DNA of 36,512 nucleotides from Planctomyces sp. (lineage in GTDB: Bacteria; Planctomycetota; Planctomycetia; Planctomycetales; Planctomycetaceae), in assembly GCA_005798445.1 (NCBI GenBank), contig SYJG01000008.1, forward strand, positions 1-36,512. The letters are read 5' to 3'. Position numbers and translations under genes: made by a program. The notes beneath the pieces were generated by a model. It saw nothing but the letters and a program-made list of their open reading frames with translations, ran no database searches and was not told the DNA's origin. Of the stretch, positions 15,182 through 31,250 are shown in pieces (within the stretch, counting starts at the first letter, position 1; the number at the start of each line of letters is the position of its first letter).

Positions 15182-17044
<1,863 letters not shown>

Positions 17045-17045
17045 G

Positions 17046-17864
17046 TTATTCGTCCTTCTTCGCAACGGCGCTAGGGGTCGCATGGCCGTCGTAGTTCTGC
17101 TCGGCTTGCAGCTTCTTCAGGTAAGCCTCGTACTCGACTTCGCGTTCCGCGCTCAGTTGAGCCCGCATCTTGTAGTGTCCCCAACCGCACAGTTCGGCAC
17201 AGGTCAGATCGAAGATTCCCTGCTTATCGGCCTGGAACCAGATCGGAATGATTTGGCCGGGGACGGCGTCTTGTTTGACTCGCAAGTGGGGCAGGAAGAA
17301 CGAGTGCTGCACGTCTTCACTGCGAAGCTGGATCATCACCGGTCGATTGATCGGAACGTGCAGGTCATTGACGTCGTACAAGTCGTCCGGCTGTGGCTTG
17401 AGTTGCAGTTTTTTCCCCGGAGCCGGATATCGAATCCGCCACTCGAACTGCCGAGCGGTCACCTCCGCCACCGGAGCCTCACGAGCTTCCTTCGGGAAGT
17501 ACACCTGGACTCGGAATAGCGCCCAAACATCCATTTGATACAGGGCGAGGAACAGCAGAATCACCGACGGGACGACCGACCAAATCACTTCCAAGCTGTG
17601 GCTGCCGTGACTGAACCAGGACCGCTCTTCCTTGCTGTGCGACGCACGCCACAGAACGTAGGCCAGCGCGATCTGCGTACCGATGAAGACCGCCGTGACG
17701 ATGTACAGAATCAAATAGAACAGGTTGTCGATTCGCTGTCCCAGCTCGGTGACGGACGGACCGGGAAACCACCAGCCCAACGAGGGGACCATCGAGGAGA
17801 TGATCGAATAGATGATCGCCACGATCGGCCAGAAGACAAAGAACGCACACCAAAACTTACGCAC
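17046..17864 (-). CDS. ctaC: cytochrome c oxidase subunit II with CuA centre
   Basis: Subunit II accepts electrons through its binuclear CuA site and passes them to subunit I. Two N-terminal helices (about 5-25 and 50-75) precede a cupredoxin domain containing FEWRIRYPAPG and VQHSFFLPHLRVKQDAVPG. The CuA ligand motif CAELCGWGHYKM is complete. No fused cytochrome c domain follows, so a separate donor is needed. The GTG at 17864 is chosen because GGGAG lies six bases upstream; a TTG at 17885 is the alternative. It ends one base before the coxI start. Upstream lies repeat A copy 3. Confidence 0.95.
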   Translation of the reverse strand: MRKFWCAFFVFWPIVAIIYSIISSMVPSLGWWFPGPSVTELGQRIDNLFYLILYIVTAVFIGTQIALAYVLWRASHSKEERSWFSHGSHSLEVIWSVVPSVILLFLALYQMDVWALFRVQVYFPKEAREAPVAEVTARQFEWRIRYPAPGKKLQLKPQPDDLYDVNDLHVPINRPVMIQLRSEDVQHSFFLPHLRVKQDAVPGQIIPIWFQADKQGIFDLTCAELCGWGHYKMRAQLSAEREVEYEAYLKKLQAEQNYDGHATPSAVAKKDE

Positions 17865-17902
17865 GGTAAACTCCCGTTTTCGCAACTTCGTCCGCAGCCA
17901 AG

Positions 17903-17997: not shown

Positions 17998-19434
17998 CTA
18001 CTTCGGATGCCCTTGCTCGACCGGATGTCCCTCGACGCTGCTGCCCGTTGCCGCTTTGGGAGCTGCCGACTCAAAGGGGACCGACAAGACGTAGTTGACC
18101 AAGTCCCAAATTTGTTCCGGAGTCACCGTCGCTGGCGTGGCCGGCATCGGAGTCCCTTTGATCCCTTGCGAGATGCGGCGATAGATGTCGATGGGCCGCC
18201 GACCGCCACGATAAATCCCGCGCGTCAAATCGCGCGGTTTGATTTGCTCACCCCAGGCGTCGTGCAAACCCCGCTTCTCGAACAGCCCGCCCGTGGCATC
18301 GTTCTTTTGATAGTCTTCCGTCTGAAAACCGTTGCCCTTGCCGGCTGGCCCGTGACAGTTCACGCACTTGCCGTCTTTCAAGAACATCAGCTTTCCACGC
18401 TCACGAGACTCCTTCGAGTCGAGAACGCGCGGTACTGGCGGGACGATGACCGTCTCCGGCGCTTCGGCACCTTCCCACGCTCCGGCGATGTCGCCGGACG
18501 CCGATTCCAAAAACGCCGGCAGTCCTTCCGCGGCGTTCGCTTCATATTCTTCAAGCTGCTTGGCGATCTGTTTTTCGATCTCGCTGGTGCTGGTGTTGGA
18601 CTCTTTGGCTTCCTTCTTGGCTCGGTCGGCCGCGAAGTCGTTCTTCAACTCCTTGAGCAACTGCACCTCGACCTCGCCACGCATGGCCAGCCAGCGGATG
18701 TATTCGATGAGCGACGTCAGTTCGTGGTCCTTGAGCATCGGCACGAACGCCGGCATGTAAGTGCCGGGGATGCCTTGGCTGACGATCCGCTTCAAGTCCT
18801 CGCGAGAGGCCTTCGTGTCTTTGTTCGTCGAGGTGAACTTGAAGACTCCCAACCGATAATCGCGCGGCCGTGGATTCAGGTACTGCGCCGTCGGCCCTTC
18901 GCCATCACCGCTGACTCCGTGGCAGTGCTGGCAATGCCGAGCATACAGCTTCCGGCCGTGTCGCAGATTCTGTCCCGCGACTACGAATTGGTCGCCGTCC
19001 GCCGGAGCCGCTTCAAATGCCGTCAACGCTTCAAAGGACTTGTCGCTGGCATCGTAGCTGGCGAGCAAAAAGGACTTTCCCTGGTTGGCTCCCGACTTGA
19101 ACAGCAAACCCGCGCGTGTCAGTTCCGGAGATTTCAGGCTTTCGAGATCACTCGCTTCGGGATTGAACTCGACAATGAATGACCGACCGTCGACCGACTT
19201 CACGGTTCCTTCGGCCTTGCCGTAGTTCACGGGCAGCTTCAACCAAGCGACGCTGTCGAGTGGCGTCCCGAAATGTTCGACCAGCGTTTTTTTGACGGCC
19301 GCTCGCGCCTTGTGATGTACTGGCTTGGCGACGGTGGTGTTCTCGGCGAACTGCATCTGTGACGCATCACCTCCACACCCGGCCACGGCACTTGCCAGTA
19401 CCACGACCAATGTTTGCCACACTCGCGCACTCAC
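17998..19434 (-). CDS. diheme cytochrome c lipoprotein
   Basis: A 478-residue probable lipoprotein: a hydrophobic signal ending in AVAGCGG, a first domain without heme (about 30-150), a cytochrome c domain with CQHCH (near 166), a charged helical linker (about 235-310) and a second cytochrome c domain with CVNCH (near 355). Met in TYMPAFVP and TPMPATPA are likely distal ligands. The GTG start at 19434 has GGAGG about seven bases upstream. It lies just before coxII, so it is a natural electron donor to CuA, possibly carrying electrons from the octaheme protein. The identity of the N-terminal domain is not clear to me. Confidence 0.9.
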   Translation of the reverse strand: MSARVWQTLVVVLASAVAGCGGDASQMQFAENTTVAKPVHHKARAAVKKTLVEHFGTPLDSVAWLKLPVNYGKAEGTVKSVDGRSFIVEFNPEASDLESLKSPELTRAGLLFKSGANQGKSFLLASYDASDKSFEALTAFEAAPADGDQFVVAGQNLRHGRKLYARHCQHCHGVSGDGEGPTAQYLNPRPRDYRLGVFKFTSTNKDTKASREDLKRIVSQGIPGTYMPAFVPMLKDHELTSLIEYIRWLAMRGEVEVQLLKELKNDFAADRAKKEAKESNTSTSEIEKQIAKQLEEYEANAAEGLPAFLESASGDIAGAWEGAEAPETVIVPPVPRVLDSKESRERGKLMFLKDGKCVNCHGPAGKGNGFQTEDYQKNDATGGLFEKRGLHDAWGEQIKPRDLTRGIYRGGRRPIDIYRRISQGIKGTPMPATPATVTPEQIWDLVNYVLSVPFESAAPKAATGSSVEGHPVEQGHPK

Positions 19435-19517: not shown

Positions 19518-20402
19518 TCACAGTCCGAATTTCTTCGCGTCCGCCTTGATCTCGACGGCCGGATTGTCGCCACCTTTGATGGTGACTTTGTACTTCGATT
19601 CCAACAGCCCCGGCTTCCCGCCGTCACCACGTTCATGCCAGACCTTGAACTGGTAGGTTCCAGCCGGCAGGTTGTCGATCTTGAAGTTTCCATCCGCATC
19701 GGAGACCGTGGCGAAGGGATGATCCAAAACGAGATGGTACGCCGTCATCCACGAGTGCAAGTCGCACTTCACCGGGAAAGGTTCACGTTCGGCCTTTTTG
19801 TAGACCAGCTTGATTCCCGTTCGGTCATTGGCACCAACGGTGTTACTGATGTTTCCATTGCGGTTTCCGACACAGCGGGTGTTATGCAGTGCGGCGTCGT
19901 CGTTCAAGATGCGGATGGTTTGCCCGACCTGGCAAAACAGAGCGTGCGTCGTGAAGCGGCAGTTCTTCTGGTCAAAGAGTGTGTCCTCCGTTGGAGGCGT
20001 CGCTTTGAAGCCAGCAGGAACCTTGTCGAGAAACACGAATACATTCGCGACGCCATTGGACTCGCTGACCACCAAGTCTTCCTTGGGGATGTCGCCATCC
20101 TTCGAGCAGACCGTCGGGTCCTTGTCCGCCATCCCCTTCTTGTAGATCACGCCCGGCGCGGGGCGTGTCCCGTCAAAAACTATTCGACCGACGAACGCTC
20201 CTGAGCCACCAGCGGGAGCACCGGGATCAGCCTCGGCCGCCTTGCCCCGTTCGACTTTGGCCACGGCTGATTCCGCAGGCTTCACTCGCACAGAAGGCTC
20301 AGCGTATGCACCGGTATCGAGCTTGGCACAGCCGGCCGAGAGCATCAGTAGTCCGCCGCAAGCCGTCATCGTCCAAAACAATTTTGAGTCAACCGTCTTC
20401 AT
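19518..20402 (-). CDS. cupredoxin-like lipoprotein with a carboxypeptidase-regulatory-like domain
   Basis: A 294-residue probable lipoprotein (lipobox LSAGC at 21-25). Residues about 68-228 look cupredoxin-like: a partner His in NDDAALHN (His173) and, near the end of the domain, KCDLHSWM with Cys213, His216 and Met219 in the order and spacing of a compact type 1 copper site. Other cysteines (148, 157, 177) could form disulfides. Residues about 232-255 (SDADGNFKIDNLPAGTYQF) resemble carboxypeptidase-regulatory-like repeats. It starts at the stop of the octaheme gene (TGATG overlap) and precedes the diheme cytochrome. A role as copper electron carrier is inferred; a structural role is the alternative. 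Confidence 0.7.
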   Translation of the reverse strand: MKTVDSKLFWTMTACGGLLMLSAGCAKLDTGAYAEPSVRVKPAESAVAKVERGKAAEADPGAPAGGSGAFVGRIVFDGTRPAPGVIYKKGMADKDPTVCSKDGDIPKEDLVVSESNGVANVFVFLDKVPAGFKATPPTEDTLFDQKNCRFTTHALFCQVGQTIRILNDDAALHNTRCVGNRNGNISNTVGANDRTGIKLVYKKAEREPFPVKCDLHSWMTAYHLVLDHPFATVSDADGNFKIDNLPAGTYQFKVWHERGDGGKPGLLESKYKVTIKGGDNPAVEIKADAKKFGL

Positions 20403-23400
20403 CAGTTGCCTCCTTCCTTCGCATCGCCCTTGGCGGGAGCCGCATTAGCGGGCGCGGGAGCCGCCGCCAACGGTAGTTTCCCTTCCCTCTCCAGGAGCCG
20501 CGTGTAATTCATCAACGCGTCGCGCACCCCCACCACTTGATCAAGCGGATTGGTATCCATCAGCGGCGGGAATTGTTTTTGATCCTTGCGGAACACCGGC
20601 GGCATCGAGGTGTACGGCGTGATCCAAAGCGGTTTGTAGAGCCACAACATGACCCAATCCGGCCGCAAGCGATCCGCGACGTATTCCAGGTTCGGTCCTC
20701 GAATGTCTTTCGGGTCCGCACTCTTCTTGTATTCGTGACCGGCGACCGAGTGACACTTCACGCAGATCGGCGCGTTGAGCACTCGCCACGATTCCTTCAG
20801 GTAGTCTCCGGTCTTCGCGCGATCCGGGTGATTCTTCTCGAACTCGGCATTCGCGACGGCCAAGTAGTCTGGATTTCGCTGCGGCACGTTTTGATACGGA
20901 TAAGGCACTCCGTCATACGCGGCGAAATAGTTTGCCAACGTTTGAGCTTCCGCATCGGTCATGTTGAACTTCGGCATTCGCAGCACGGTCGCGTGCCGCA
21001 GTTGAGCCGGATTCTTCAAGAAGGAATACAGCCACGGGGTCTGCACCTTGATCCCTTCCTGATACAGCGCCGGTGGTGACATTTGCCAGGCATTCGAGTC
21101 GGCATCACGTCGCTTGATGTCCCCGACCAACCATTCGGCAAACGCTCCACCACGAGCCGGCTTCTCGGAAACGAGCTGCGGTTCGGGAACGATGATTCTC
21201 GCGGGTGCCCACTGGACCTTGCCACCGACGTCGATCGTCTCCCAAAGGTCGTAGCCGTACTCGCGCTCTTCCGGTTCGTCCTCCGGCTTCGGCCGAGACG
21301 ACGGGAGTCCCTTGAACATCACAACCGGCAGCGTCTCCGTGCCGTCGCTCTTCTTGACGACGTGCGACTTTCCGGTCAACGCTTTGCGCGGCGGCTTGAG
21401 CTTCATCAATAGCTCGAAGCCCTCCGGATGATCCTCGACACCGAGTTCCGACGGAGCGACTTCTTCCAACTTGGTCGCGTAAGAAATCTCCGGCAAGTCG
21501 ATGATATGGCAGCCGGTGCAATTGAATTTCTGCAACAGCTTCTCCCCTTCGACTTTCGCAAGCTCCGCACCCCTCGGCCGGTACTGATACTTCTCGGCGG
21601 GCGGCCGCGCGACGAGTCCCAGCACGAACGTCGAGATCGCTTCGATCTCGTGTTCGTTGAGCGGGAACTTCGGCATTCGCAGACGTTCGTCGTAGAACTT
21701 GGTCTCGGTCTTCTCGTAGTCGTAGCTGCGCGGATCGCGGAGCTTTTGCCAAATGAAGCCGGGGCGGCCGTGGTGCAGCAGGCTTTCGTAGAAGAACGCG
21801 GCACCGAGTTCCTTTTCTTCCTGTTCGTGACTGTCGTAGTCTCCGGTCGCCGCTTTCTTGATGGCGTTCTCGACGCGGGTCTTCGTCGAACTGCCGTCCG
21901 GTTCGCCGTGATGATGCAGGTATTCTTCGATGTGCTCCGGCGCGAGACGAGACGGGTCTTTCAAACCCCAGTCCTGCAACGCGGTGCCGATCGGCCGAGC
22001 GGTTTCGAAGTTCGGGATGTCGTGGCAGCCGTAGCAGCCGTAGCGCGAGATCGTCACACGGCCGAGGTAGTTCATCTTCCGTTTGCGCCACTCATCGTCG
22101 GTAAACTTGACGTCGGCGGTTTCGGCCACGAGCTCAATCTCGTCACCTTTCACCGTCTCGCGAGCGAGCGGGTACTTGCGATCCTTCATCACGTTCTTGG
22201 CTTGCTCGGGTGTGACCGTCTTGCGTCGCCAGAGCAGCATTTCGACGAGCTTGTCTAGCTCGGCATCGGTGATTTCGATGGCGTCGTACTTCGCCGTTTC
22301 GCCGGTCAGCAAGTAGGCTGCGATATCGGCCGCCGGGTCGATCGACGTCCCATCAGGCTGTGTGACGGCGTCGAGGAACAAGTCTGGCATCTTCGTGCGC
22401 GGGTGATGTCGTTCCGGCTCGCGAATCCAGGTGTAGAGCCAGTTGAACCCGTCGTCTCCCGGCTTAAGCTTGGCCTTGATCTTCGACAAGTTGGGACCGA
22501 ACTCCGCCTTGGTCCCTTGGAATCGCTCGGCGTCGTGACTGTGACAGGCGAGGCAACCCTTCTGCGCGAACAACGTTTCGCCACGCTTCGCGTCCGGCTT
22601 GTAGTCGGCGGCCGGCTTGTCGTACTTCAACTCCTTCGAGTTGTCGAACAGGTAATGCGCGATGCCCGCGAGTTCGGCTTTCGAGAACTGTTTGCCATGT
22701 TCGTCGATGTTGTTCGTCAAGTTGAAGAATTGCGGCATCGTGGTCTTGGGCCGGAAGCGTTTCGGCTCCTCGGTCCAGTGCGTCAGCCATTCGCGAGTCG
22801 TCTTGCTGGCGATGTGCTTGAGGCTCGGCCCGACTTTGCGTTCGACTCCGGCCACTGCCTTCGGATCGTCGGCAATCTTCTTGGCTTCGGCGAGCGTTTG
22901 CGGTTCGAGCCGCAGGTCGGGGCCGACCGGTTTGCCGGCATCGAAGCCATTGATCTCGTGACAGCCAAAGCAGCCGTACTTCTTGATGAGCTGCCAGCCT
23001 TCGTAAGCCTTCGGCGCGGTCGCTCCGAACTTGGTGTTCTGGCCGAGTTCGACGACAGAGTGGTGGCACTTCAAGCAGGCGGACTCACGCAACCGAGCCG
23101 GCTGCATCGGATATTCCCAGAAGTGATTGTTGAACCACTTGAAGTCGTGCTCCCATTCGTGAGCCTGATGCGGGTCGTTGGGCGTATGCGACGCATTCTG
23201 GAAACTGGTTCCCGAACCTTGCCCGTCATGGCACGACGTGCAGCCGAAATCGTTGAGCGGGTGCGGACTGGCGGCGGTCAGATAAACGTCCGGCCGCGGG
23301 TGCGTCGAGAACGGATGCGCGAAGGTTCCGTTCTTGCCGTCGCCGTGCGGGAAGTCAGGAACGTCGCCGGCACCGACACGATCAATCGCCAGATGGCAGG

Positions 23401-24259
23401 TGCGGCAACGATCGAAGCGTGCCGTCTTAGCCATGCCGAGCGTGATCTTCATGTCCGGCAGCCAGTCCTGCTGGATTTTGATGTGCGAGTTGAAGCCGTC
23501 GACGATCGGCTGCTCCATGAGCCAGCGTTTGAACGTCTTGACTGCACCGGCCATTGAATTCGGTTCCGGTTCGATCCGGCTCTTGGCAGCCTCCAACCGG
23601 AGCACGTCCGCCTCGAACGCTTTCACCGCCGCCACTGCGGCGTCGCGATCTTTGGTCTGTGCTTTCAATTCGTCAGTGGCTGCTTTGCGAGTGGCCTCGA
23701 TCCGGTCAAGCTCCGCCTCTAGTTCATCGACGGCTTGTCGCTTCTCATTGAAGTCCTTCAACAAGGCGGCCATTTTCTCTTCGGGGACTTGATCGCGAAC
23801 ACTAAGGTCGTAGTTGGCGCTGGCCACCCCCCGATAGGATCGGCTCTCGCGCACCTTCCGCATCTGCATCAGGTGTTCGTTGTCGAGCGTCTTGACCGTG
23901 TCTTCTCGCTTGGCGAGATCGTGCTCCGTCTCTTTCAATCTCGCTTCCAATTTTTTCTGCTGGGCTTCCTTCGCCTCGTTCAGTTCTTGGAGCTTGGTTT
24001 CGTACGACTTCTGCAACTTCGCGGCGGACTTGGCTCCATTGCCCAAGGCCACGTTGGTGAGTTCCGCCTTCTTGGCGGCTTCTTCGGCATCGATCTTGTC
24101 CGCTTCCAATTGGAAGAACTGATGCTGATACGCTCGCCACTCGTCGTGGTGGTCGAAGTACATCATCAGCAGCGTCGCTACGAACAGCACGATCATGCTG
24201 ACGGCGAACCACCGGTGCATCTTGGGAAGCGGACGTAGATAGTCTTCGGTCGCTGGCAT
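20402..24259 (-). CDS. membrane-anchored octaheme cytochrome c (1285 aa)
   Basis: Residues about 15-35 form one N-terminal transmembrane helix. Residues about 45-235 are rich in Lys, Glu, Ala and Gln and should form a long periplasmic coiled coil. Eight CxxCH heme motifs follow: CRTCH (about 284), CTSCH (339), CLKCH (394), CFGCH (428), CLACH (567), CYGCH (740), CTGCH (912) and CVKCH (1163). The first four lie within about 150 residues and the last four are widely spaced in cytochrome c-like domains, several followed by MP motifs that may provide Met ligands. The tail is Ala/Pro-rich. It is encoded directly after the cytochrome b genes, so it probably takes the place of cytochrome c1 or f. Apart from its hemes I do not recognise a named family. 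Confidence 0.9.
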   Translation of the reverse strand: MPATEDYLRPLPKMHRWFAVSMIVLFVATLLMMYFDHHDEWRAYQHQFFQLEADKIDAEEAAKKAELTNVALGNGAKSAAKLQKSYETKLQELNEAKEAQQKKLEARLKETEHDLAKREDTVKTLDNEHLMQMRKVRESRSYRGVASANYDLSVRDQVPEEKMAALLKDFNEKRQAVDELEAELDRIEATRKAATDELKAQTKDRDAAVAAVKAFEADVLRLEAAKSRIEPEPNSMAGAVKTFKRWLMEQPIVDGFNSHIKIQQDWLPDMKITLGMAKTARFDRCRTCHLAIDRVGAGDVPDFPHGDGKNGTFAHPFSTHPRPDVYLTAASPHPLNDFGCTSCHDGQGSGTSFQNASHTPNDPHQAHEWEHDFKWFNNHFWEYPMQPARLRESACLKCHHSVVELGQNTKFGATAPKAYEGWQLIKKYGCFGCHEINGFDAGKPVGPDLRLEPQTLAEAKKIADDPKAVAGVERKVGPSLKHIASKTTREWLTHWTEEPKRFRPKTTMPQFFNLTNNIDEHGKQFSKAELAGIAHYLFDNSKELKYDKPAADYKPDAKRGETLFAQKGCLACHSHDAERFQGTKAEFGPNLSKIKAKLKPGDDGFNWLYTWIREPERHHPRTKMPDLFLDAVTQPDGTSIDPAADIAAYLLTGETAKYDAIEITDAELDKLVEMLLWRRKTVTPEQAKNVMKDRKYPLARETVKGDEIELVAETADVKFTDDEWRKRKMNYLGRVTISRYGCYGCHDIPNFETARPIGTALQDWGLKDPSRLAPEHIEEYLHHHGEPDGSSTKTRVENAIKKAATGDYDSHEQEEKELGAAFFYESLLHHGRPGFIWQKLRDPRSYDYEKTETKFYDERLRMPKFPLNEHEIEAISTFVLGLVARPPAEKYQYRPRGAELAKVEGEKLLQKFNCTGCHIIDLPEISYATKLEEVAPSELGVEDHPEGFELLMKLKPPRKALTGKSHVVKKSDGTETLPVVMFKGLPSSRPKPEDEPEEREYGYDLWETIDVGGKVQWAPARIIVPEPQLVSEKPARGGAFAEWLVGDIKRRDADSNAWQMSPPALYQEGIKVQTPWLYSFLKNPAQLRHATVLRMPKFNMTDAEAQTLANYFAAYDGVPYPYQNVPQRNPDYLAVANAEFEKNHPDRAKTGDYLKESWRVLNAPICVKCHSVAGHEYKKSADPKDIRGPNLEYVADRLRPDWVMLWLYKPLWITPYTSMPPVFRKDQKQFPPLMDTNPLDQVVGVRDALMNYTRLLEREGKLPLAAAPAPANAAPAKGDAKEGGN

Positions 24260-24328: not shown

Positions 24329-25744
24329 CTAGACGTTAAAGAACCACTCCGGGATCGCGATGAAGTACTTCAGATTGGCGGCCCAGCGAAGCACCATCTT
24401 CAAAGGCAGAGCCGCCATCATCAGCACCAAGTTCGAGAACACCATGAACCGCAGGAAACCCATGCGGAGGAAAAACTTCTTGAAGACCGTCATCGCCATC
24501 ACCATCGGCAGCACGCCGAGATAAACGCCGATGGCCACGAACCCGACGAACTCGCGCGCCAAGATGTACGGAGCCTGCGTCCAAAAATCGGAACCGGCGG
24601 GAGCCATCGGCAGCGGTTGGCCCAGCCCGTACCAGAAGTACTCGGACAAGTTGACGTTGTTCAGAGCTTCCAGCTTATGGACGTCCCAGTATTCGTAGAT
24701 GCCGAAGACGTTCCAGTTCGGGCCACGCAAGAACGTTCCCAAAATGATCATCCCGACCCACAGCGGCAGGAAGCCAAACATGAACGTCGAGATCGCGAAC
24801 TTGCGTTGGTTGAACGTGTAGTAACCGTTGCCGAGCTTGTTGAAGTCGATGTACGGGATGGCCATCATCCCGCCGAGAATGACGCTCGGAAACACCACAC
24901 CCGCCAGCCACGGATCGTAGTACACCAGCATTTCTTGGAGACCCAGGAAGTACCACGGTGCCTTCGATGGGTTCGGAGTCTTCACGGCCGAAGCGGGTTC
25001 TTCCAGCGGAGCCTGCAACGCGATGCCCCACAGAATGAGCAGCGCCGTCACCGCGATCATGCAGATCATTTCGGTGTAAACGAGATCCGGCCAGGTCAGC
25101 ACTTTCTCGTTGTTCTCCGCTTCGATCGGCCCTTGGCCCAATGCCGCGCGGCGGTCGTTCTCGTTGGCTCGGTAGAAGAACAGCCAAGTGAAGTAGCCGA
25201 CGATGAACAGCATCGCCACGATCGGCACGTTGTCCGGCTTGCCGACGATCTGCCGAAAGTCCCAGTCGGTCAGACTGACGCACAGAAACAGCAGCGACAG
25301 GTTCAGCAGCACCCAACCGACATTCGGTTTTGCCAGCCAGTTCCGCAGGGCGATCATGGCGATAAAGGCAAAGGTCGTGACCGCGAAGTAGGTGCGTGCA
25401 TCCGCCACGACACTGTCGATGGCCGCCTTGGCAAAGTCCGGCATCACGAACCAACGCAACGCTTCCGGGACACTCGCGCAGGTCAAGTGAGTCACTGAAA
25501 CGAGCAGCAACGCGATCGTGTACGTCGCCCAAATGGAAGCACTCGGCATGTCCATGCCGCCCATGAATTCGGGCAGCCGGAAATGACGACCTTTGTGATA
25601 CGACCTCCAAGTCCAAACCACGTTCATGGCGGCCAGAATCAGATACAGCCACCCCAGCCCGAACAGGACGCTCGGCGTCACGTTCGGATGCGGGTCGGTC
25701 GATCCGAGGGTCAAGCAGGAAGTGATCAGCGACAGCGCGTTCAT
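24329..25744 (-). CDS. cytochrome b subunit IV-like protein with extra N-terminal helices
   Basis: A 471-residue membrane protein. Residues about 25-190 carry five helices with no counterpart in subunit IV of cytochrome b6f. The subunit IV-like part starts near 222, with a helix followed by the quinol-site segment PNPSKAPWYFLGLQEML (257-273). Aligned to the PEWY motif of the Qo site, this reads APWY, so the conserved Glu is missing. Several further helices follow. It lies 23 bp after the b6-like gene and is expected to complete the quinol-oxidising site. The extra helices may anchor the other subunits or the oxidase. Confidence 0.85.
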   Translation of the reverse strand: MNALSLITSCLTLGSTDPHPNVTPSVLFGLGWLYLILAAMNVVWTWRSYHKGRHFRLPEFMGGMDMPSASIWATYTIALLLVSVTHLTCASVPEALRWFVMPDFAKAAIDSVVADARTYFAVTTFAFIAMIALRNWLAKPNVGWVLLNLSLLFLCVSLTDWDFRQIVGKPDNVPIVAMLFIVGYFTWLFFYRANENDRRAALGQGPIEAENNEKVLTWPDLVYTEMICMIAVTALLILWGIALQAPLEEPASAVKTPNPSKAPWYFLGLQEMLVYYDPWLAGVVFPSVILGGMMAIPYIDFNKLGNGYYTFNQRKFAISTFMFGFLPLWVGMIILGTFLRGPNWNVFGIYEYWDVHKLEALNNVNLSEYFWYGLGQPLPMAPAGSDFWTQAPYILAREFVGFVAIGVYLGVLPMVMAMTVFKKFFLRMGFLRFMVFSNLVLMMAALPLKMVLRWAANLKYFIAIPEWFFNV

Positions 25745-25767: not shown

Positions 25768-26541
25768 CTACAACGGCTGTGAAATCCCGCCGTCTTTGCG
25801 GACTCGCCAGAAATGAATGGCGATCAAGCCAGACACCGCCAGCGGGATCGCGACGCAGTGCAGGATGTAAAACCGATTCAAGGTTTCCTCACCGACGAAG
25901 CGGCTCCCCAGCAACAAGAAGCGAGCATCGCTGGCGTTGGTGATGAGGTCGTATCCACCGAGGTTCAAGAACTGGAAGCCAGGGCCTTCGTGCCCCAGCA
26001 CCGGCGTCGCGCGTGCCATGTTCGAGCCAACGGTGATGGCCCAAATGGCGAGCTGATCCCACGGCAGCAAGTAGCCGGTGAACGACAGCAGCAACGTCAG
26101 CTTCAGCAAGATGACGCCGACGACCCAGTTGAATTCGCGTGGCGGCTTGTAACTGCCGGTTAAGAAGACGCGATACATGTGCAACCAAACGGTGATCACC
26201 ATCGCGTGAGCACCCCAGCGGTGAATCTCGCGCATGATCCCCAGCGTCGTCACATCGCGCAGAGCGAGGATGTCGTTGAAGGCCCACTCCAGCGTCGGCC
26301 GGTAGTAGAACATCAGCAGCACGCCGGTGATGGTCTCGACCAAGAACAGGAAGAAGGTGATGCCCCCCATGCACCAGGTGTAAGACAGCGCGATGCCTTG
26401 CTGCTTGATCGACACCGGATGCAGGTGCAGAAAGAAGTTGGTGAGCATGACGACCACGCGGTTGCGGCGGTCGTACGGAGCCGGATGCCGGAAGATGCTC
26501 TTCCAGATCTGTGAATCGCGAATGTAATCGCCAACCGACAT
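25768..26541 (-). CDS. cytochrome b6-like subunit
   Basis: This 257-residue protein aligns along its length with cytochrome b6. The heme b ligands are His107 and His121 (HRWGAHAMV, VWLHMYRV) and His228 and His243 (ILHCV, AIHFW). LLPWDQLAIWA and FYYRPTLEWAF are further b6 hallmarks. Cys57 in TWCMGGITF falls where b6 has the Cys that binds the extra heme c (heme ci or cn), so a covalently bound heme near the Qi site is predicted. It is followed by the subunit IV-like gene and preceded by the Rieske gene with a 29-bp gap. Quinone type is not determined by the sequence. Confidence 0.93.
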   Translation of the reverse strand: MSVGDYIRDSQIWKSIFRHPAPYDRRNRVVVMLTNFFLHLHPVSIKQQGIALSYTWCMGGITFFLFLVETITGVLLMFYYRPTLEWAFNDILALRDVTTLGIMREIHRWGAHAMVITVWLHMYRVFLTGSYKPPREFNWVVGVILLKLTLLLSFTGYLLPWDQLAIWAITVGSNMARATPVLGHEGPGFQFLNLGGYDLITNASDARFLLLGSRFVGEETLNRFYILHCVAIPLAVSGLIAIHFWRVRKDGGISQPL

Positions 26542-26570: not shown

Positions 26571-27671
26571 CTAGGCCAGAGTCCCGTCGACAAAGGAGTT
26601 CGAGTCCGCCCACTGACCCATTTCTTCCTGGAACTTGACGCTCTTATCCACTTCCAATTGACCATCCGACGCCAGCTTGATCCCCACTCGCTCCAGCGGT
26701 CGCGGAGCCGGGCCTTCAAAGTTGATGCCGTTGATGTAGAAGCCCGAACCGTGGCACGGGCATTTGTATTTCTGCTCCCCTTCGAGCCAGTTCGGCGTGC
26801 AACCGAGATGCGTACAGACCGAAGCCAAGGCGTAAATCAGATTCTGCCCCTTGTACTGATCGGTATGCACGATCCAGACACCGCGAGCCGCCAGCCACTT
26901 CGTGCTGACTCCACCCAACGGATAATCGCTGGGCGGACCAATCTTGAATTTCGTCGGCGGCTCAACCAGCACGTTCGGGAACATGAAGCGAGCGAGATCG
27001 AGCAACCACAACAGCGACGTCGCCGCCATTGACGTAAACGCGAGCACCAACGGTGAGAAACAAATCACAAGCAAACTGCGTCGGCCAAGCTCGACGGTGA
27101 GCTTCTTATCTTTTGCTGCGGGAGGCTTGACCGGAATCGGCGGCAGCGTGGGCTTCACGGGAATCACCGGCGATGAGGCTGCAACCTCGGCAGCGGCTTT
27201 CTCGCCACGCACTGCCTTGAGCATCTCTTCGACGGAGGGCTTCGGAGCGCCGCTCGCGACCGCTGCCGCAGGCTTCGCAGCCGGAGAGGCAGTCGCGGCT
27301 GGTGCGTCGCCAGCCGGTGCTGCTGCACCTGTTTTGCCGGCGCGGATCGCGGCGAGAATATCGGACGTTCCGCTCGGCTTTGCAGCGGCCGGTTTCGGAG
27401 CCGCAGCCTTCGGGGCATCTGCCGCCGCCGGAGCCGCTGCTCCCTTCGCGCCTTGAGCGCGAATCGCTGCGAGGATGTCGCCGGTTGATCCGGGCTTCGC
27501 AGCCGGTGCGGGCTTGGCCGCAGGCGTCGGAGCAGACTCAGCGGGAGGCGTTGCCGCAGTCGCCGGAGCTTCCGCTGCCGGGGGTGCTGCAGGCGCGTCG
27601 CTGCTCGCCGCGGGTTTTGCAGCTCGGATCTTGGCGAGGATATCAGCCGTTGACAGTTTTGATTCAGACAT
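26571..27671 (-). CDS. Rieske iron-sulfur protein with an N-terminal motif array
   Basis: The C-terminal half is a Rieske subunit: one transmembrane helix (about 198-230), then the 2Fe-2S ligands in CTHLGC (286-291) and CPCHGSGF (304-311). It would take electrons from quinol at the cytochrome b site. The N-terminal 190 residues are unusual: an Ala/Pro/Lys-rich, probably disordered region holding four copies of a short motif, ADILAKIRA (9-17), GDILAAIRA (64-72), SDILAAIRA (103-111) and VEEMLKAVR (147-155). This region lies before the membrane helix and should be cytoplasmic. It is the first gene of the respiratory cluster. A similar array occurs in the unrelated protein at 30576-31250. Confidence 0.93.
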   Translation of the reverse strand: MSESKLSTADILAKIRAAKPAASSDAPAAPPAAEAPATAATPPAESAPTPAAKPAPAAKPGSTGDILAAIRAQGAKGAAAPAAADAPKAAAPKPAAAKPSGTSDILAAIRAGKTGAAAPAGDAPAATASPAAKPAAAVASGAPKPSVEEMLKAVRGEKAAAEVAASSPVIPVKPTLPPIPVKPPAAKDKKLTVELGRRSLLVICFSPLVLAFTSMAATSLLWLLDLARFMFPNVLVEPPTKFKIGPPSDYPLGGVSTKWLAARGVWIVHTDQYKGQNLIYALASVCTHLGCTPNWLEGEQKYKCPCHGSGFYINGINFEGPAPRPLERVGIKLASDGQLEVDKSVKFQEEMGQWADSNSFVDGTLA

Positions 27672-30575: not shown

Positions 30576-31250
30576 CTACTTGTTGCCCTTGAACGCACCT
30601 TGCATGCGGATCAATTCGAGCGGCGACAGTTTCTTGCCATCCGCCGCTGCCGCCGGCTTCGGTGCTTCAACAGCCGGCGCGGGTGCGGCCTCCGCTGGAG
30701 CAGCCGCTTCAGTCTTCGTCGCTTGCTGCTGGCGGATCATCTCAATCGGCGACAACTTCTTGCCTTCACCACTGGCCGCTGGAGTTGGCGCGGCCGCCGC
30801 CCCACCCGCTTTGGCGGCACCCTGCTGACGAATCAAATCGAGCGGGCTGGGCTTCGCACCACCGGCTGCGGGTGCTGCTGCTGGCTTCGCACCGGCCGCA
30901 CCTTGCTGTCGGATCAAATCCAGAGGACTAGCCTTCTTTTCGGAAGCCGCTGCGGGCTTCGCCGCCGGAGCAGACTTGGCAGCGGGCGATTCCTTCGCCG
31001 GCTTCTCCTCGGCCTTCTTCTTCGGAGCCGGAGCATCCACCACTGTCAGGAATGCCGGATCAATGTCGTACCAGCCGATGTCCGCCGGGCCGTCGAACAG
31101 CACGAGTGCTCGGCAACTCATGTTGACCGTCTTCACGACGCCGGTCAGACCGTCGAATCGGCGAAGCTCCGGCACTCCGGATTTCACGACGACGTACTTG
31201 TCGGTGTACTGCTTCTTCAGCAACTCGGCTTGTTCAAATCGAGCAGACAT
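30576..31250 (-). CDS. hypothetical protein with a small N-terminal domain and a C-terminal motif array
   Basis: I do not recognise the family of this 224-residue protein. Residues 1-72 form a compact, probably beta-rich domain (KYVVVKSG, LTGVVKTVN, RALVLFDG, DIGWYDIDP) resembling a KOW/SH3-like fold. The rest is Ala/Pro/Lys-rich and low-complexity, with four copies of a short motif: SPLDLIRQQG (108-117), SPLDLIRQQG (135-144), SPIEMIRQQQ (167-176) and SPLELIRMQG (209-218). The array resembles in plan, and loosely in sequence, that of the Rieske N-terminus. No signal peptide is seen, so it should be cytoplasmic. Confidence 0.75.
   Translation of the reverse strand: MSARFEQAELLKKQYTDKYVVVKSGVPELRRFDGLTGVVKTVNMSCRALVLFDGPADIGWYDIDPAFLTVVDAPAPKKKAEEKPAKESPAAKSAPAAKPAAASEKKASPLDLIRQQGAAGAKPAAAPAAGGAKPSPLDLIRQQGAAKAGGAAAAPTPAASGEGKKLSPIEMIRQQQATKTEAAAPAEAAPAPAVEAPKPAAAADGKKLSPLELIRMQGAFKGNK

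Follow-up and report, generated by a model that had tools for sequence, protein, structure and literature searches.

A probable octaheme c-type subunit in the place of cytochrome c1 or f, with a predicted helical hairpin, in a planctomycete Rieske/cytochrome b operon

The window analysed here, a 36,512-nucleotide stretch of Planctomyces sp. DNA, encodes at 20402–24259 (minus strand) a 1285-residue octaheme cytochrome c whose gene follows those for a Rieske protein and a split cytochrome b. Judging from gene order and homology, we consider it highly probable (roughly 0.8) that a b6f-like Rieske/cytochrome b complex has this protein as its c-type subunit, the equivalent of cytochrome c1 or f. 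As a design, the replacement of c1 or f by an octaheme cytochrome c is not novel, because it has been published for Nitrospina, Methylomirabilis and Kuenenia. What is new is the predicted division of the hemes into groups of three and five, and the reading of a long coiled coil as an antiparallel hairpin.

The sequence-only reading of this DNA had described a 1285-residue octaheme cytochrome with a single N-terminal helix, leaving the strand unstated. Both features hold up. The open reading frame starts with ATG on the minus strand, the plus-strand translation of the same interval contains several stops, and a single hydrophobic helix is found at residues 17–35 by hydropathy and at residues 11–37 in the AF2 model. 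A motif scan placed the starts of the CxxCH motifs at residues 285, 340, 395, 430, 569, 742, 914 and 1166. All 16 cysteines of the protein lie within these motifs, and shuffled versions of the sequence contained on average 0.007 of them (maximum 1 in 5000 shuffles). The operon runs on the minus strand in the order Rieske, b6, subunit IV (SUIV), octaheme, cupredoxin, diheme cytochrome c, COX2, COX1 and further oxidase genes:

26571–27671, minus strand: Rieske [2Fe-2S] protein with an Ala/Pro-rich repeat N-terminus (open reading frame, domain and family matches, conservation)
25768–26541, minus strand: cytochrome b6-like subunit with His 107/121 and 228/243 (domain and family matches, conservation)
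24329–25744, minus strand: enlarged subunit-IV-like protein of 471 residues (cytb6_f_IV and ExtQ matches, conservation)
20402–24259, minus strand: octaheme cytochrome c subunit of 1285 residues (open reading frame translation, motif scan, homolog alignment)
19518–20402, minus strand: predicted lipoprotein cupredoxin (conservation, co-location downstream at 68 of 78 loci)
17998–19434, minus strand: diheme cytochrome c with a lipobox-like N-terminus (open reading frame, domain match, co-location, conservation)
17046–17885, minus strand: cytochrome c oxidase subunit II with the CuA motif CAELCGWGHYKM (open reading frame, domain and family matches)
15182–17083, minus strand: cytochrome c oxidase subunit I (sequence, co-location)

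At 471 residues, SUIV greatly exceeds its b6f counterpart, for which TIGR01156 has 160 positions; it has extra hydrophobic N- and C-terminal parts, and its Qo motif reads APWY in place of PEWY. In the b6-like subunit, the conserved Cys57 suggests a heme cN, which in b6f complexes is bound by such a cysteine. The product of 19518–20402 shows only weak similarity to CarboxypepD_reg and has a conserved type-1 copper ligand set, in which the candidate ligands His173, Cys213, His216 and Met219 are at least 90% conserved, and it is likely to be an unrecognised cupredoxin electron carrier. Cupredoxin genes often form tandem pairs and lie between the octaheme and oxidase genes. Short linear repeats that resemble one another, DILAAIRAxxxxA and SPLDLIRQQGAA, occur in residues 1–130 of the Rieske protein and in a 224-residue protein encoded at 30576–31250 (minus strand), where they perhaps represent shared binding motifs.

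How widespread is this arrangement? Within the same family, 94 of 101 genomes contained octaheme matches, and a phylum-wide sample gave matches in 164 of 294 genomes. Both figures are upper bounds for true homologs, since some matches are short and single-domain. Exactly eight CxxCH motifs were counted in all full-length homologs examined across the phylum. At least 489 relatives were returned by a scan of named genomes. Nearly every one of the best 80 carries a Planctomycetota label (Planctomycetaceae, Isosphaeraceae, Thalassoglobus, Adhaeretor, Paludisphaera and others), the exceptions being one MAG labelled Nealsonbacteria and one labelled only 'bacterium'. In several homologs PDZ domains, odd in a respiratory cytochrome, are inserted at differing inter-heme positions (816–867 in L049, 658–743 in L051, 755–831 in L052 and 206–262 in L054). 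These inserts match Pfam PDZ_2/PDZ_6 at or above cutoff, and another was recognised by eye in L148.

The gene order is conserved as well. Rieske, b6 and SUIV lie directly upstream of the octaheme gene at 93 of the 97 loci with enough upstream sequence, so that its position after the cytochrome b genes recurs in other genomes. Among the 78 loci with enough downstream sequence, COX2 and COX1 are found at 54 and a cupredoxin gene at 68. The oxidase partner is not universal, since COX2 and COX1 matches are missing from the examined flank at 24 of these loci and none of the listed downstream partners is found at 10. Divergence of the octaheme subunit tracks that of SUIV (r = 0.78), b6 (r = 0.70) and COX1 (r = 0.95, 13 loci), correlations to which shared species history contributes.

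The sequence-only reading had cast the protein in place of c1 or f and had seen neither gene beside the cytochrome b genes. The first proposal agrees with the order at 93 of 97 loci, and the second observation extends to the whole assembly (90% complete, 553 contigs), which yielded no convincing gene for c1 or f, either beside the b genes or elsewhere. The only matches to these families are two fragmentary ones that were rejected as chance or local: a c1 match in contig C247 that covers 32 residues inside a 1390-residue frame, and a sub-threshold f match in contig C400 that covers 60 residues inside a 975-residue frame. The phylum-wide alignment of 25 octaheme sequences was too diverse to serve as a query for the genome scan. 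The same genome contains two further Rieske/cytochrome b operons, C510 (L084:4628–8710) and C339 (L085:6423–8985). One combines an unsplit b, a 228-residue protein and a different octaheme cytochrome of 534 residues (Multi-haem_cyto/Cytochrome_C554 matches); in the other, cytochrome b is fused to a diheme cytochrome c. Because of these two additional complexes, the octaheme-type complex need not carry all quinol oxidation.

The Pfam matches of the octaheme subunit include neither PF02167 (cytochrome c1) nor PF01333 (cytochrome f). Both of these proteins carry one heme rather than eight, and they are anchored C-terminally, whereas the octaheme subunit has an N-terminal anchor. A sequence search against PDB gave no significant relative of the subunit. 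Foldseek returned no significant fold. The list of the structural aligner was filled by coiled coils and so says little about the cytochrome part. Identity as a SoxX equivalog was rejected: the score of 62.2 against a cutoff of 61 covers parts of single class-I domains of this 1285-residue protein. Within the protein, we distinguish the following regions:

24149–24229, minus strand: N-terminal transmembrane helix, residues 11–37 (hydropathy and AF2 helix)
23573–24034, minus strand: predicted antiparallel coiled-coil hairpin of helices 76–155 and 160–229 (AF2, hairpin matches, heptad period, constant arm segments)
23060–23413, minus strand: triheme module with CxxCH 285/340/395 and invariant extra His 320, 333 and 358, predicted bis-His (alignments)
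20495–23008, minus strand: five class-I monoheme cytochrome c domains, predicted His/Met (alignments, Pfam Cytochrom_C)

By motif starts, four CxxCH motifs are indeed clustered (285–430) and four far apart (569–1166), as described earlier; the candidate sixth ligands point to a 3+5 rather than a 4+4 layout. In the class-I domains, the motifs at 430, 569, 742, 914 and 1166 are paired with Met 508, 624, 862, 1095 and 1219. The Met after each of hemes 4–8 is invariant, mostly as Met-Pro, in 25 phylum-wide sequences, a pattern that was repeated in 54. Met-Pro after CxxCH is a mark of class-I cytochrome c domains, and the Pfam Cytochrom_C matches fall in the second part of the subunit. Alongside hemes 1–3, His 320, 333 and 358 are invariant in the 25 sequences and again in the 54. 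In the 25-sequence alignment heme 1 of L054 is misaligned owing to the missing coil of that homolog. Because Met follows hemes 4–8, the fourth heme of the apparent cluster is assigned to the class-I series, which leaves a predicted triheme bis-His cluster plus five His/Met domains. Bis-His hemes usually have lower potentials than His/Met hemes, and we infer two such potential groups here.

With this assignment each of the eight hemes is matched to a conserved candidate sixth ligand, so that no site would be free. The absence of a free site weighs against the idea that the protein is an enzyme, an octaheme oxidoreductase of the nitrite or hydroxylamine type merely co-located with complex III. 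Other octaheme enzyme families are common in the phylum (PMC11266412), and the different 534-residue octaheme sits in another Rieske/b operon of the same genome. However, no HAO/Onr-type family is among the Pfam matches of the window protein, and taken together with the ligands this makes an enzymatic identity highly improbable.

We next turn to the helical region. Residues 41–240 have a helical composition (72% A/E/K/L/Q/R/D/M, P+G 3.5%). In the window protein taken alone, heptads were no clearer than in shuffles. Averaged over 46 homologs, the hydropathy period is 3.50 for residues 159–232 (reached by none of 500 shuffles) and 3.54 for residues 41–136 (reached by 3 of 500). Composition and averaged heptads fit the coiled coil of about 190 residues that had been predicted from the sequence, but AF2 divides it into two helices instead of one stalk. 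Given the protein chain alone, as a monomer without hemes or partners, AF2 modelled residues 1–560 (pLDDT 78.8) with long helices at 76–155 and 160–229 separated by a turn at 156–159. The same helices and four-residue break recur in the model of residues 56–1255 (pLDDT 83.6, pTM 0.78). In the hairpin arms, pLDDT is about 78–98 in the 1–560 model, which has a further small break at 112–113, and 59–93 in the 56–1255 model.

Structure comparison aligned residues ~112–201, centred on the break, with the antiparallel hairpins of MacA, the SipB N-terminal region, seryl-tRNA synthetase and the LSD1 tower (1.2–3.1 Å over 79–91 residues, Z 10–12; for MacA and SipB, 1.2–2.1 Å over about 88 residues). 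These matches reflect a common arrangement, not relationship. Most arm segments are of constant length in 72–82 of 85 homologs, with indels mainly confined to the base and the surroundings of residue 110 and a few insertions in the arms (L148, L158). Because insertions fall mostly at those two places, the length correlation between the arms (r = 0.22) is uninformative as a test of the hairpin. In the homolog L128, an insertion in the first arm carries an EF-hand-like sequence, DKNKDGKISYEDI, recognised by eye. Two homologs are without the hairpin: in L159 the spacer has 99 residues versus about 222, and in L054 only 86 residues separate the membrane helix from heme 1. Neither has lost the membrane helix or any of the eight CxxCH motifs. 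Such a loss from otherwise complete proteins, an observation independent of AF2, is expected if the two ends of the hairpin lie close together.

These observations bear on the earlier suggestion that the region is a rigid stalk which projects the hemes or oligomerises the protein, thereby fixing how far complex III lies from the oxidase. A stalk would accommodate the helical composition, the averaged heptad periodicity and the constant length of most arm segments, but not easily the turn between two long arms in the AF2 models, the matches to antiparallel hairpins centred on that turn, or the two homologs that keep the remainder of the protein. A hairpin cannot set a through-distance. As both of its ends return to one place at the base, and as it is missing in two relatives, the modelled hairpin probably does not define the distance between the complex and the oxidase, and we regard a stalk as quite unlikely. 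In the antiparallel-hairpin reading, the element most likely lies near the membrane and acts as a clamp or scaffold packed alongside the complex. This idea draws on the published model of Kustd1485, in which long helices embrace the complex together with the Rieske protein, reaching halfway round (PMC12954380).

The comparison with known systems places the window protein in an existing group. In Kustd1480–1485 of Kuenenia stuttgartiensis, a hexa- or octaheme cytochrome c replaces cytochrome f (PMC12954380). In Nitrospina gracilis, an atypical octaheme protein is encoded by the only c-type subunit gene adjoining the Rieske/b6/SUIV operon, and this type of operon is also present in Kuenenia and Methylomirabilis (PMC3578206). 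Among the homologs found here, L065 encodes a 948-residue octaheme protein (E 6.5e-55 to the window protein) in a 4.4 Mb single-contig genome. Its gene order, Rieske, b6, FAD/Fe-S NAD(P) oxidoreductase, SUIV and octaheme, matches the published Kustd1480–1485, and the genome is probably that of Kuenenia. The homolog in L066 matches the window protein with E 6e-69. Four MAGs titled Candidatus Kuenenia stuttgartiensis (L089, L090, L110 and L129) carry a gene of the window type (46–86% identity) and look mislabelled.

Through L065, the window protein is homologous to Kustd1485, with which it shares eight CxxCH motifs, the N-terminal membrane helix, the long helical region and a gene position after Rieske, b6 and SUIV, as a multiheme cytochrome c in the place of cytochrome f. 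On the other hand, it is about 340 residues longer, and its operon has cupredoxin, diheme cytochrome c and aa3 oxidase genes downstream, while b6 adjoins SUIV (gap of 23 bp) with no gene for an NAD(P) oxidoreductase in between. With N. gracilis and Methylomirabilis oxyfera, which belong to other phyla, it shares by published description the combination of Rieske and split b6/SUIV with a single c-type subunit gene, that of an octaheme (PMC3578206). By gene context, eight alignable heme motifs and sequence homology alike, it belongs with the Kustd1485/Nitrospina-type octaheme subunits. QcrC of the actinobacterial bc1-aa3 supercomplexes is similar in that a multi-domain class-I cytochrome c replaces c1 and wires complex III to the oxidase. 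However, QcrC is diheme and has no hairpin, and the match is weak, sub-threshold and limited to one domain (E 2e-4).

The anammox relatives raise the question of whether the octaheme subunit could be a multi-exit electron hub, serving soluble or outer carriers or reverse flow, with the bis-His triheme module directed to a low-potential partner and not to the oxidase. Their complex includes an NAD(P) oxidoreductase subunit for which a bifurcating role has been proposed (PMC12954380). Two ligand classes among the hemes and the missing downstream oxidase genes at part of the loci would also suit a hub. Against it, no such oxidoreductase gene separates b6 from SUIV in the window, and a standard oxidase set lies downstream in the window and in close relatives. 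We therefore treat the hub as a tentative possibility, well short of even odds.

If the protein is the c1/f equivalent, as we prefer, it would be anchored through its N-terminal helix, quinol would be oxidised at b6/SUIV, and the Rieske protein would pass one electron to a heme of the octaheme subunit. The His/Met hemes would form the natural high-potential route linking Rieske with the oxidase, the class-I chain delivering electrons to the cupredoxin or the diheme cytochrome c and these in turn to CuA of the aa3 oxidase. A point against this route is that it has no obvious need for low-potential bis-His hemes. A more elaborate version, which we consider unlikely, would be a two-compartment wire, in which the five His/Met hemes connect Rieske to the oxidase and the bis-His hemes form a low-potential branch, while the hairpin clamps the mobile Rieske head or docks the oxidase in a fixed complex III–IV supercomplex without mobile cytochrome c.

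The finding adds nothing unusual in kind, yet it usefully extends what is known of a little-studied complex, for which, to our knowledge, no experimental structure exists. It means that other Planctomycetota commonly encode the octaheme-type complex III already described for anammox and nitrite-oxidising bacteria, in most cases beside an aa3 oxidase. Since the window has an adjoining oxidase and lacks the NAD(P) oxidoreductase, the octaheme subunit is not confined to the part in NAD(P)H formation that has been proposed for the anammox complex. The predicted 3+5 heme layout and the dispensable hairpin offer concrete predictions for this complex.
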